This document shows positions 49,629-54,450 of a stretch of 64,000 nucleotides of DNA, in pieces. This DNA comes from Sandaracinus sp. (lineage in GTDB: Bacteria > Myxococcota_A > Polyangia > Polyangiales > Houyiibacteriaceae). The DNA is taken from assembly GCA_002699025.1 (NCBI GenBank), contig PABA01000011.1, positions 1 through 64,000 of the forward strand, in the 5' to 3' direction. The position numbers were made by a program, and so were the translations under genes. The notes beneath the pieces were generated by a model. That model made no database searches and had not been told where the DNA came from. It worked only from the letters and a program-made list of their open reading frames with translations. How positions within the stretch are numbered: position 1 is the stretch's first letter; every line of letters starts with the position of its first letter.

Positions 49629-51059
49629 ATGGCTTCCTTCCCTCGTCTCGCCTGCTCGCTCGTCGCGCTCGCGGTGCTCTGCGCCGCCGCGCCGGCCCGG
49701 GCCGACGCGCCCTGCGACGAGGGAGCCTCCGGGGAGGAAGCGACGACCGGTGAGCAGGCCGCCGCCCCGTCCGCGGCCGACGAGGACGCCGAGCCCTGCC
49801 CGAGCCCGCGCCGCCCGATCCCCGACTACGACGGGCGGCGCATCGGCCCGACCCCGGGGGACCGCGCGCTCTGGATCCCGCGCGTCGTCTTCTTCCCGAT
49901 CTGGTGGGTCGCCGAGGTGCTCGTGCGCCGCCCGCTCGTCTGGCTCACGGGCCTGCTCGCGGAGCGCCAGCTCGTCCGCCGCTACAAGGAGTTCTTCACC
50001 TTCGGCCCCGAGGACCGGGTCACGCTCATGCCGACCTTCCTCTACGACCTCGGGTTCCGCCCGAACGCCGGGCTCCGCTTCGAGTACCGGGAGATCCGCG
50101 GCTCGCCGGCCACCGTCTTCGCGCGCGTCGCCTACGGCGGCGCGGACTGGCTCTCCGGAGAGGCGGGCCTGCGGGTGACGCGCGGCGTGTGGCGCTGGGA
50201 CCTGCGCGGCGGCGGGCAGCGCCGCCCGGACGGCCGCTTCTTCGGCCTCGGCAGCGAGGCCCGCGACGGGAGCTCCGCGCGCTTCCGCTGGGACGGGGTG
50301 GACGCCACCAGCCGGCTCGGCTGGCACCCGACGCGCGGCGACGCCATCACCCTCGCGCTCGGCGTGCGGCGCCGTCGCTTCCGGCCCGCCGAGAACCCGC
50401 AGCGCTCCATCGAGGCCGTCGTCGAGGACCCGGAGACCAGCGTGACGGCGCTGCCCCCGGCCTACCCGGACGGCTACGACGCGCTCCGGCTCGAGCTCGG
50501 CGGCGAGCTCGACACGCGCCCCTACCGCCCCCACCCGCTCACCGGCGTGCGCGCGGCGGCCAGCGTGCTCGTCGGCGCGGACGTGCGCGAGCGGGAACGG
50601 CGCGGCGCCTGGCTCCGCTGGCAGGGGGAGCTCACGGGCCACTGGGACGTCAGCGGCGCGCGCCACGTCCTGCGCCTCGGCCTGCACCTCACGGGCACGG
50701 AGATCGTCTCGGGGGCCATGCCCTTCACCGAGCTCCCGGACCTCGGCGGTAGCGGCCCCATGCGCGGCTTCCACGGCGGGCGCCTCGTCGGCCGGAGCGG
50801 CGCCGCGCTCCTCCTCGCCTACGATTGGCCCATCTGGCAGGCGATGGACGGCACGCTCCAGCTCGGCCTCGGCAACGTCTACGACGGGCACTTCCAGGAG
50901 CTCGGTCCGGGCAACAGCCGGCTCAGCGTCGCCTTCGGCTTCGCGGCGATCGGGAAGCGCGAGCACCGCTTCCAGATGCTGGTCGGCTTCGGCACGGAGC
51001 CCTTCGACGAAGGCGGTCAGGTGAAGAGCGTGCGCTTCACCGTGGGGGTGGCGCCATGA
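49629..51059 (+). CDS. Outer-membrane barrel of the Omp85 (BamA/TamA) type, no clear POTRA
   Basis: A 476-residue protein with a signal peptide (CSLVALAVLCAAAPARADAP). A Gly/Ala/Pro linker and a hydrophobic-amphipathic segment (WIPRVVFFPIWWVAEVLVRR, about 78-97) precede about 340 residues of alternating beta strands (VTLMPTFLYDLGFRPNAGLR). The Omp85 lid-loop motif is probably GGSGPMRGFHGGRLVGRSGA (about 373). Only about 130 residues precede the barrel, too few for several POTRA domains, so this is a short Omp85-like protein. Its stop overlaps the next gene's ATG, so the two products are made together. Role in assembly or export of the partner is inferred. Confidence 0.82.
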   Translation: MASFPRLACSLVALAVLCAAAPARADAPCDEGASGEEATTGEQAAAPSAADEDAEPCPSPRRPIPDYDGRRIGPTPGDRALWIPRVVFFPIWWVAEVLVRRPLVWLTGLLAERQLVRRYKEFFTFGPEDRVTLMPTFLYDLGFRPNAGLRFEYREIRGSPATVFARVAYGGADWLSGEAGLRVTRGVWRWDLRGGGQRRPDGRFFGLGSEARDGSSARFRWDGVDATSRLGWHPTRGDAITLALGVRRRRFRPAENPQRSIEAVVEDPETSVTALPPAYPDGYDALRLELGGELDTRPYRPHPLTGVRAAASVLVGADVRERERRGAWLRWQGELTGHWDVSGARHVLRLGLHLTGTEIVSGAMPFTELPDLGGSGPMRGFHGGRLVGRSGAALLLAYDWPIWQAMDGTLQLGLGNVYDGHFQELGPGNSRLSVAFGFAAIGKREHRFQMLVGFGTEPFDEGGQVKSVRFTVGVAP

Positions 51060-52771
51060 GGCGACGGCTGCGACGGAGGCGACGGCTGCCGACCTTGCTC
51101 CTGGCGCTCGCCCTCGGCTGCGGCGCCGGGGTCCAGCGCTTCCCGCTCGGCGAGGCCATGTGGGTCGACGAGGGCGACACGCGCGCCGTACGGCCGCGGC
51201 CCGGCGAGAGTTCGGCCAACCTGCTCCAGGACTTCGTCGACTACACGCTGCTCCGCCCGATCACGCGCGTCTTCGCCGTGGACCCGGCCGGCGAGGCGAT
51301 CGACGTGAACGCCTTCGACGAGGTGCCCGACTCGAGCTGGTTCGAGAACCGCTGGCGAGAGGGGGGCTTCGACGTGGCGCGCGCCCTCCGGGGCGCCTGC
51401 GACGAGCCGCCGCCGGTCGCGCCCTGGACCGTCGTCAGCGGCAAGCGCGCCGGCGCCAACCCGGGCTTCGTCATCGAGGACGCCGAGGGGCGCCGCTTCG
51501 TCGTGAAGCTCGACGAGCCCAGCCAGCCCGAGCACGCGACCAGCGCCGACGTGATCGGCGCCACCGTCTACTGGGCGGCCGGCTACCACACGCCCTGCAA
51601 CCGCATCGCCTTCTTCCAGCCCGACGCCCTCGAGATCGCCGAGGGTGCGATGGCGGGCAAGGGCGCCGAGCAGGAGCCGCTCACCCGGGCGCTGCTCCAG
51701 GAGATCGTCGCCCTCGGCCACGCGCGCGCCGACGGCGCCGTGCGCGCCATGGCGAGCCGCTACCTCCCCGGCGAGCCGCTCGGCCCTTGGCGCTACGAGG
51801 GCATGCGCGAGGACGACCCGAACGACGTCGTACCGCACGAGGACCGGCGCGAGCTCCGCGGCTCCTACGTGGTCGCCTCCTGGATCGACCATTGGGACAC
51901 GCGCTCGTCGAACACGCTGCGCATGTGGATCGACCCGGACGGGGACGGGCGGGGCCACGTGCGCCACAACTTCCTCGACTGGGGCGACGTGATCGGCACG
52001 GACGCGGGGCCCCTCGGCATCCCGCCGCGGCGCGGGCACACCTACAACTTCCACCCGGGCCACGTCTTCACCGACTTCGTCACGCTCGGCGCGATGCCGC
52101 GCCCCTGGCGGCACGTGGAGCGCGGCCCGGCGGGCGAGCTGCTCGGCTACTTCGACGCCGAGCGCTTCGACCCGGAGGAGTGGTACCCGAGCGTGCTGAA
52201 CCCCGCCTTCCAGCGCGCGACCGAGCGGGACATGGCCTGGGGCGCGCGGCGGGTGGCGGCGATGGGGCCGGCCTTCGTCGCGGCGCTCGTGGCGTCGCTC
52301 CAGCTCGCGGACCCGGGCGCGGCCGCCGAGCTCGAGCGCGTGCTCCTGGCGCGGCGGGAGAAGATCCTGAAGCGCTGGTTCCGGCGCCTCTCGCCGCTCA
52401 CCGAGCCGCGCCTCGAGGCGGGCGCCGGGGGGAGCGGGACCGCGCGCCTCTGCCTGCGGGACCTGGCCGTGGCGACGGGCATCGTGGAGTGGGACGCGCG
52501 GCCCTATTGGACGCGCGCCTGGCGCGTGGAGGGGGAGCGACGCGTCGAGGCGCTCGAGCCCTTCCCGCTGCGGCGCCGGGCCCCCGACCGGGTCTGCGCG
52601 CTCCTGCCCGAGACGGACGCCGGCTACCTGATCGTCGACCTCACGGGGCAGTACGGCGAGGGAGACCGGGCCGCCCGCCCGGCCCGCGTGCACCTCGCGC
52701 GCGCCGAGGGCGGCGGCCTCCAGATCGTGGGCCTCGAGCGCCCCTACGAGCTCACCCCGCCAGGCCGCTGA
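51056..52771 (+). CDS. Lipoprotein with kinase-like motifs, partner of the Omp85-type barrel
   Basis: A 571-residue lipoprotein (RRLPTLLLALALGCGAGVQR, lipobox LALGC). Three spaced motifs resemble a divergent protein-kinase fold of the HipA/CotH/Fam20 style: GRRFVVKLDEPSQPEHATSA (candidate ATP-Lys, about 145-164), SWIDHWDTRSSNTLRMWIDP (HxDxxxxN-like catalytic loop, about 275-294) and HNFLDWGDVIGTD (DFG-like Asp, about 305-317). The C-terminal half (about 430-571) is beta-rich without motif. Secreted kinases of this kind are rare and the match is by motif order only. The ATG overlaps the barrel gene's stop. Confidence 0.78.
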   Translation: MRRRLRRRRRLPTLLLALALGCGAGVQRFPLGEAMWVDEGDTRAVRPRPGESSANLLQDFVDYTLLRPITRVFAVDPAGEAIDVNAFDEVPDSSWFENRWREGGFDVARALRGACDEPPPVAPWTVVSGKRAGANPGFVIEDAEGRRFVVKLDEPSQPEHATSADVIGATVYWAAGYHTPCNRIAFFQPDALEIAEGAMAGKGAEQEPLTRALLQEIVALGHARADGAVRAMASRYLPGEPLGPWRYEGMREDDPNDVVPHEDRRELRGSYVVASWIDHWDTRSSNTLRMWIDPDGDGRGHVRHNFLDWGDVIGTDAGPLGIPPRRGHTYNFHPGHVFTDFVTLGAMPRPWRHVERGPAGELLGYFDAERFDPEEWYPSVLNPAFQRATERDMAWGARRVAAMGPAFVAALVASLQLADPGAAAELERVLLARREKILKRWFRRLSPLTEPRLEAGAGGSGTARLCLRDLAVATGIVEWDARPYWTRAWRVEGERRVEALEPFPLRRRAPDRVCALLPETDAGYLIVDLTGQYGEGDRAARPARVHLARAEGGGLQIVGLERPYELTPPGR

Positions 52772-53211: not shown

Positions 53212-54450
53212 GTGACACGCACAAAGCTGTATTCCGTGCTGGCACTCGTGCTCCTGGCGAGCGCTTGCGAACCCAATGTCCAAGGCCGATGGGAGGCGGA
53301 GACGCCGTCCGATCTGGAAGGAGAGCCCATCGCGCGCGGCGACTTCGCCGAGCGCTCCGAGTGTGGCGTCGGCACACCGACCGGCGAGGGCCTCGCGCGC
53401 CTCATCCGCACGCCCTTCCTGCAGAACGTGACCGCCGACGCGGCCACGGTGCTCTGGGTCGGCGACGCCGTGGCCGAGGTGGACCTGGTCGTCGAGACGC
53501 CCGAGGGCGAGGTCGTCGCGGTCGTCCCCGCCGAGCCGGACCCCGGCGCCGCCCTCGAGGAGGGGCTGCAGCTCCGGGCCCGCGCCGAGGGCCTCGACGC
53601 CGGGGAGACCTACTGCTGGCACCTCCGCGATGGCGCCGGCCCGCTGACCGCGCCCGCCGGCCTCGAGACCGCGCCCGTCGACATGGACGCCCCCGTGCGC
53701 TTCGCGGTCTGGGGCGACTCGGGCACGGGCGGCATCGATCAGGTGCAGCTCCAGGCCCAGATGGACACGGTCGACTTCGACCTCGCGCTCCACGTGGGTG
53801 ACCTCGCCTACCCGACGGCCACGCGCGAGGCGCTCCAGGACTACGTCTTCGACATCTACCCGGCGCTCTTCGCGCAGGTGCCCTTCTTCCCCGTGCCGGG
53901 CAACCACGACTACTCGGCCGACGACGCGGCGCCCTTCCGCGAGGCCTTCGAGCTGCCCGTCATCGACGACCCGGCGAGCGGCGAGCGCTGGTACGCCTTC
54001 GACTGGGGCTCGGTGCACTTCGTCGCCATGGACACCGAGGCGCTGAACGAGGACCAGCTCGCCTGGCTCGAGCGCGACCTCGAGGCGCACCAGGACGCCC
54101 CCTGGATCGTCGTCTACGGCCACCACCCGCCCTACTCGTCCGGCCACCACGGCTCCTCGAGCCGGATGCGCGAGCTGACCGAGACCTTCGAGCGTCACGG
54201 CGTGGACCTGGTCTTCACGGGCCACGACCACCACTACGAGCGCACGGTCGACCTGAACGGCGTCACCTACGTCGTGACGGGCGGCGGCGGCGCCGGGACG
54301 CGGAGCGCGAGCCGCTCCGAGTGGACGGCGCGGACCGAGGTGGTCGCCCACTTCGTGATGGTCGAGGCGACGCGCGACCGGATGTCGATGCACGCCATCG
54401 ACGCGACGGGCAACGAGTTCGACCGGGCCGTCTTCCACGCGCAGCGCTGA
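53212..54450 (+). CDS. Secreted metallophosphoesterase lipoprotein (purple acid phosphatase-like)
   Basis: A 412-residue lipoprotein (LYSVLALVLLASACEPNVQG, lipobox ASAC). Residues about 60-155 form a fibronectin-like N-terminal domain of the purple-acid-phosphatase type (TPFLQNVTADAATVLWVGDA). The catalytic domain shows the dinuclear-metal ligands VRFAVWGDSGTGG (about 162-174), ALHVGDLAYPTAT (about 192), VPGNHDYSADD (about 226), VVYGHHPPYSSGHHG (about 302) and TGHDHHYER (about 336). Substrate is probably a phosphomonoester outside the cytoplasm. GTG start at 53212, preceded by GATGGA. It is a single gene. Confidence 0.9.
   Translation: MTRTKLYSVLALVLLASACEPNVQGRWEAETPSDLEGEPIARGDFAERSECGVGTPTGEGLARLIRTPFLQNVTADAATVLWVGDAVAEVDLVVETPEGEVVAVVPAEPDPGAALEEGLQLRARAEGLDAGETYCWHLRDGAGPLTAPAGLETAPVDMDAPVRFAVWGDSGTGGIDQVQLQAQMDTVDFDLALHVGDLAYPTATREALQDYVFDIYPALFAQVPFFPVPGNHDYSADDAAPFREAFELPVIDDPASGERWYAFDWGSVHFVAMDTEALNEDQLAWLERDLEAHQDAPWIVVYGHHPPYSSGHHGSSSRMRELTETFERHGVDLVFTGHDHHYERTVDLNGVTYVVTGGGGAGTRSASRSEWTARTEVVAHFVMVEATRDRMSMHAIDATGNEFDRAVFHAQR

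Follow-up and report, generated by a model that had tools for sequence, protein, structure and literature searches.

Two genes on the same strand of the window (the whole stretch of Sandaracinus sp. DNA that was analyzed, 64,000 nucleotides) encode a predicted outer-membrane barrel and a predicted lipoprotein. ATGA is shared by the stop of the barrel ORF and the start of the lipoprotein ORF; this overlap, reported in the initial annotation, is borne out by the ORF coordinates. The features are as follows (residue numbers are those of each protein; intact and degenerate relatives are defined below).

49629..51059, + strand: barrel gene, 476 aa; predicted POTRA-less 16-strand Omp85-type outer-membrane barrel (ORF, AlphaFold2 model, Foldseek, PF01103 in relatives)
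49872..49964, + strand: long N-terminal helix of the barrel, residues 82–112, in place of POTRA domains (DSSP of the AlphaFold2 model)
50760..50771, + strand: MRGF motif of the barrel, residues 378–381, inside a conserved PFTEL..LGG...MRGF block (barrel alignment)
51056..52771, + strand: lipoprotein gene, 571 aa; predicted atypical-kinase fold (ORF, AlphaFold2 model, VIA-align)
51119..51121, + strand: putative lipobox cysteine C22 (Cys in 132/137 intact and 16/19 degenerate relatives)
51398..52390, + strand: predicted kinase domain, residues ~115–445 (VIA-align range against CtkA, Fam20C, PI4KII and HipA/HipT)
51443..51466, + strand: K130..G133...G137, putative glycine-loop equivalent (conservation; aligned to the same loop in HipA_2 proteins)
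51506..51508, + strand: K151, putative equivalent of the nucleotide-anchoring Lys (conservation; hhalign register to the HipA_2 Lys)
51896..51913, + strand: D281-x4-N286, putative catalytic loop (136/137 each in intact relatives)
51977..51985, + strand: D308-x-G310, putative DFG-like metal-binding Asp (D308 in 137/137 intact relatives)
52391..52750, + strand: predicted C-terminal β-sandwich domain, residues ~446–565, with C466 and C514 (strands in the AlphaFold2 model)

Single-protein searches with the window barrel gave no match in Pfam, NCBIfam or PDB sequences. Its AlphaFold2 model (pLDDT 86.9) has 16 strands, with low confidence for residues 1–46, and Foldseek matched this model to TamA (E 1.2e-10), Sam50 and BamA, with E-values ranging from 1e-10 to 1e-8. 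PF01103 (Omp85) is reached by 50 of 65 barrel relatives, but not by the window protein itself. With the strand number of the model, these matches and PF01103 in relatives, the predicted barrel qualifies as a member of the Omp85 superfamily. The MRGF motif resembles the Omp85 loop-6 motif, and a conserved PR..l.P stretch lies at the N-terminal helix region. The initial annotation had held that the barrel has too little N-terminal sequence for several POTRA domains. The model confirms this: strand 1 is preceded by just ~55 low-confidence residues and one long helix, too little to accommodate POTRA domains.

The lipoprotein was likewise without a match in Pfam or NCBIfam (versions searched) or in PDB sequences in single-protein searches, and comparison of its profile with that of the barrel found no relation between the two. 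Its AlphaFold2 model, built on 86 sequences, has a pLDDT of 93.4 and a pTM of 0.93. With VIA-align 2, CtkA ranked first (Z 14.6; 232 residues, rmsd 4.1 Å), and Fam20C (Z 13.3), PI4KII (Z 12.9) and HipT/HipA (Z 8–11) also matched; the guidance for this program is that Z-values below 8 may reflect a common arrangement only, and the kinase matches lie above that level. The C-terminal β-sandwich is a separate domain, for which Ig-like and other β-sandwich matches were only middling (Z 7–9). In an hhalign comparison with myxobacterial HipA_2 proteins, residues 127–191 were aligned with a probability of 74% (pairwise E 2.8e-5), in a register that places K151 on the HipA-family Lys. Some relatives give weak Pfam matches to HipA_2 and HipA_C (at best 0.053 and 0.011, respectively); the window lipoprotein had no match in a search with the curated HipA family. 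An atypical-kinase fold, as the initial annotation had suggested from motif spacing, is well supported for the predicted structure. The protein is only remotely related to any particular kinase family, given that the top-ranked Foldseek match, a Golgi casein kinase, reaches only E 1e-3 with low TM-scores.

The fold leaves the class of substrate undecided. The target of the kinase may be an envelope lipid, glycan or small molecule instead of a protein, as it is for PI4KII and Fam20B-type enzymes, and PI4KII is indeed as near in fold as Fam20C. This is possible, though we would not expect it: CtkA, which ranks first, is a protein kinase (fold alone shows no substrate), and no glycan or lipid pathway is indicated in the neighborhood.

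The three motifs singled out in the initial annotation, RRFVVKLDEP (K151), DHWDTRSSNT (D281 and N286) and DWGDVIG (D308), are present where it had placed them. Their conservation was assessed in 156 non-redundant relatives, which comprise 137 intact members and 19 degenerate members, the latter defined by the absence of at least two of K151, D281, N286 and D308. Among intact relatives, which span three phyla, K130, K151 and D308 are found in 137/137 and G133, G137, D281 and N286 in 136/137, which puts the motifs far beyond chance. Neither outcome that would have refuted the proposal, a non-kinase fold or unconserved motif residues, was seen. The degenerate relatives have all lost K151 and N286 and, for the most part, also K130, G133, G137, D281 and D308. 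Because the two groups were defined by the other four positions, the behavior of K130, G133 and G137 is independent evidence. The glycine loop, the Lys, D-x4-N and DxG are thus kept or lost as one set. ATP binding and phosphotransfer by the lipoprotein are inferred from these patterns, without activity data.

Some kinase-fold proteins catalyze AMP transfer, and the likeness of the lipoprotein to canonical kinases is remote; the fold may therefore serve another reaction of this kind. We consider this very unlikely, as the loop, Lys, D-x4-N and DxG are ordered and conserved in the manner of HipA-type phosphotransferases.

Features of the N-terminus point to export. Among the 148 family members with a Cys at alignment column 22, a lipobox-like motif is present in 130 and a hydrophobic stretch in 143, and the residue at position +2 after the Cys is mostly Ala, Gly or Ser across the family. 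The window lipoprotein has the lipobox ALGC with Gly, and no Asp, at +2. Under the sorting rule of Escherichia coli, such +2 residues fit the outer membrane. Judged from sequence, these features fit an outer-membrane lipoprotein, the location itself being inferred. C466 (123/137 intact relatives) and C514 (122/137) are co-conserved, which is compatible with a putative disulfide outside the cytoplasm.

Relatives of the lipoprotein occur in 100 of the 289 genomes of its class. The window's genome has a second copy that is 54% identical and has its own barrel (G000:C119). A scan of one genome collection gave 408 related stretches, the best 80 of which come from Myxococcota, Fodinibius (Balneolota) and one KSB1 MAG; no relatives were found in the viral contigs scanned. 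Non-redundant adjacent pairs of barrel and lipoprotein genes number 105 and come from Myxococcota, Balneolota and one KSB1 MAG; in 102 the two genes share a strand (the barrel leads in 88, the lipoprotein in 14), and in 3 they are on opposite strands. Both genes are present in 84 of the 289 class genomes, the lipoprotein only in 16, the barrel only in 2 and neither in 187 (Fisher 2e-53; neither this value nor the genome counts are phylogeny-corrected). The class-wide barrel search was made with a single protein and missed divergent barrels, and several of the 16 lipoprotein-only genomes have, by profile, a divergent barrel next door. A barrel gene lies within 3.5 kb of 69/81 intact and 13/13 degenerate lipoprotein genes, leaving 12/81 intact genes without one.

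Pairwise distances among the lipoproteins track those among the barrels (matrix correlation 0.87; no permutation above 0.17), in part because of shared species history, and on one contig with two divergent pairs (L080) each lipoprotein matches its own barrel. Co-occurrence of the two genes, proposed as a check in the initial annotation, was seen across genomes and phyla, and their pairing and co-inheritance are well supported as real. The larger proposal of an exported kinase made together with a barrel is largely supported, in that the kinase fold and the pairing stood; that the kinase is active and exported remains inferred.

Several further arrangements were observed. A third family barrel in the window's genome (L211:5442-6803; G000:C170:32890-34299) is 37% identical and has no lipoprotein or carrier nearby. 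At L044, L048, L083 and L193, two kinase lipoproteins are encoded close together, sometimes with one shared barrel. In two close relatives in which the lipoprotein gene is not linked to a barrel, the best barrel adjoins an apparent membrane phosphatase ORF (PAP2-like by eye; L212:7241-8095 and L214:4020-5003). Two apparent barrel–kinase fusions were rejected as probable indel or assembly faults: L095:1218-3965 is a single frame that lacks the last barrel part at the junction, and L142:670-3603 seems to result from a broken frame where the barrel ends.

Co-inheritance would also be expected if the lipoprotein were surface-exposed cargo that is exported by the barrel and uses extracellular ATP, for example from lysed prey. 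Omp85 relatives such as PlpD display an enzymatic domain at the cell surface (PMC4104836). The family is present in Balneolota too, however, and a linked inner-membrane nucleotide carrier (see below) would do little for an enzyme outside the cell, so that we hold surface display to be distinctly unlikely.

The flanks of 80 genome-collection loci were compared for other conserved neighbors. A metallophosphatase-like protein (by eye) is encoded just 3′ of the window lipoprotein gene (53212–54450); neither it nor the upstream window genes have a counterpart in these flanks, and both were rejected as partners. A membrane Ser/Thr protein kinase ORF, as at L192:6722-8269, is of a type present at 15/80 loci and likely represents a common myxobacterial family. 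Clustering of neighbors gave one ORF family at 38/80 loci, in which 34 of 36 members reach PF03219 (TLC ATP/ADP carrier, NTT) and whose profile matches solved ADP,ATP carriers, one of them chloroplastic (9j3n, E 6.7e-41; 9j3j, E 4e-31). By sequence, this family is assigned to the TLC ATP/ADP carriers. Some copies carry HEAT repeats, and NTTs with HEAT repeats, of unknown role, have been described in bacteria (PMC5381601). The carriers are distant from characterized ones: their TIGR00769 score is far below the cut-off, and the family consensus has Asp where the canonical GKSGG segment has Lys. Nucleotide exchange, substrate and direction of transport are accordingly only putative.

Carrier linkage was counted at loci flanked by 3.5 kb or more of sequence on each side: 46/81 intact kinase genes have a carrier gene no more than 3.5 kb away (35/81 do not), compared with 0/13 degenerate genes. 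Since genomes have only about 1–6 carrier matches each, we estimate that a carrier would be this close by chance in about 1/100 cases or fewer. Linkage switches 16 times along the tree, and gene order and strand vary; this speaks against a single arrangement passed down by descent. Two genomes of the Balneolota search (G486 and G490) each combine a carrier-linked intact copy with an unlinked degenerate copy. At the genome level, a carrier is present in 75/84 genomes with an intact kinase and in 9/16 degenerate-only genomes. On the FastTree tree, loss of the active site corresponds to two changes, one covering 13 members in Polyangia and the other 3 Balneolota and 3 myxobacterial copies; long branches meet in the latter, mixed group, and separate losses may be merged there. 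Because an independent-pairs test cannot become significant with only two losses, the contrast between intact and degenerate genes is suggestive, not proven. In the window's genome, the one carrier gene is unlinked and lies on another contig (G000:C85); the three-gene cluster is thus a property of the family and not of this locus. Carrier genes were also seen 2–3.4 kb from intact kinase genes with no barrel nearby (L186, L188), and carrier-family ORFs about 1–4 kb from barrels without a neighboring lipoprotein (L216, L217, L218).

The degenerate lineages raise the possibility that the main role of the lipoprotein beside the barrel is structural, comparable to that of Bam lipoproteins, with nucleotide binding in an accessory or regulatory role and with the core role revealed where the enzymatic part has been dropped. 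Two lineages lack the active site and yet keep the barrel at all 13 testable loci, and D254, D257, H261, R265, R268, W276, H304, D392, W395 and R433 are kept in degenerate as in intact relatives (all of these except H304 are counted in support). This is the best alternative, and we judge it unlikely, since K151 and D308 are invariant in the 137 intact members across three phyla and a carrier gene lies beside intact members only.

On balance, we lean towards an extracytoplasmic, outer-membrane-anchored phosphorylation module in which the kinase uses exported ATP and is served by the barrel. The fold, active-site conservation, pairing with co-inheritance and carrier-gene linkage on which this reading builds are computed results. 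The lipoprotein would be exported and would receive a lipid anchor that most likely fixes it to the periplasmic side of the outer membrane; membrane location and topology are inferred. The kinase domain would bind nucleotide via K130/G133/G137/K151, N286 and D308, and phosphate would be passed via D281 to an envelope substrate. Candidates are the barrel, one of its clients, and a glycan or lipid of the surface; activity and substrate are both inferences. The POTRA-less barrel would be a dedicated partner of the lipoprotein, inferred to serve as an anchor, as an exporter or in assembly. ATP is commonly assumed to be absent from the periplasm. An inner-membrane NTT carrier, whose gene is often in the same cluster, might bring ATP to the periplasm, although its direction and substrate are likewise inferred. 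That the three genes form one envelope system, in which the carrier exports ATP and the lipid-anchored kinase phosphorylates outer-membrane substrates with its dedicated barrel, is a tentative proposal, a real possibility that falls short of probable. If true, ATP would drive phosphorylation beyond the cytoplasm of a Gram-negative cell, and a periplasmic kinase with an outer-membrane partner and a presumed ATP supply would mean a further level at which the envelope is regulated or assembled, one not known before.

No exported lipoprotein kinase with a barrel, and no periplasmic kinase fed by a carrier, was found described in the open-access literature searched (subscription papers were outside the scope). 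The parts come from known superfamilies, and the joined system seems, within that literature, to be undescribed; its newness is inferred and depends on confirmed function. The closest fold to the lipoprotein is that of CtkA, a Ser/Thr kinase of Helicobacter pylori, with 8% identity and a match that leaves out the C-terminal β-sandwich; to our knowledge, CtkA has not been described as a lipoprotein with an Omp85 partner. Fam20C and its relatives have a kinase fold that works outside the cytosol, as proposed for the lipoprotein, but Fam20C is a eukaryotic secretory-pathway kinase without a barrel partner, and the match is one of fold only (10% identity, no sequence match).

HipA, HipT and HipA_2 share with the lipoprotein the kinase fold and the profile match at the Lys region. 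HipA-type kinases are cytoplasmic toxin–antitoxin kinases, and in HipBA a HipB-type antitoxin is adjacent, whereas the predicted exported lipoprotein adjoins an Omp85 barrel. The neighboring carrier gene belongs to the same family as the NTT/TLC ATP-ADP carriers, of which the characterized members are from parasites and plastids and the roles in free-living bacteria are unknown (PMC5381601); the proposed system, if true, would give such uncharacterized carriers a testable role. BamA and TamA have POTRA domains, whereas the window barrel has none. Its predicted architecture, an Omp85 barrel without an N-terminal domain, is that of the noNterm Omp85 subfamily, and the match is one of architecture only. 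The survey of that subfamily mentions kinases nowhere (0 occurrences), and the function of noNterm members is unknown; if the proposed system is real, POTRA-less Omp85 barrels would likewise acquire a testable role (PMC4104836).
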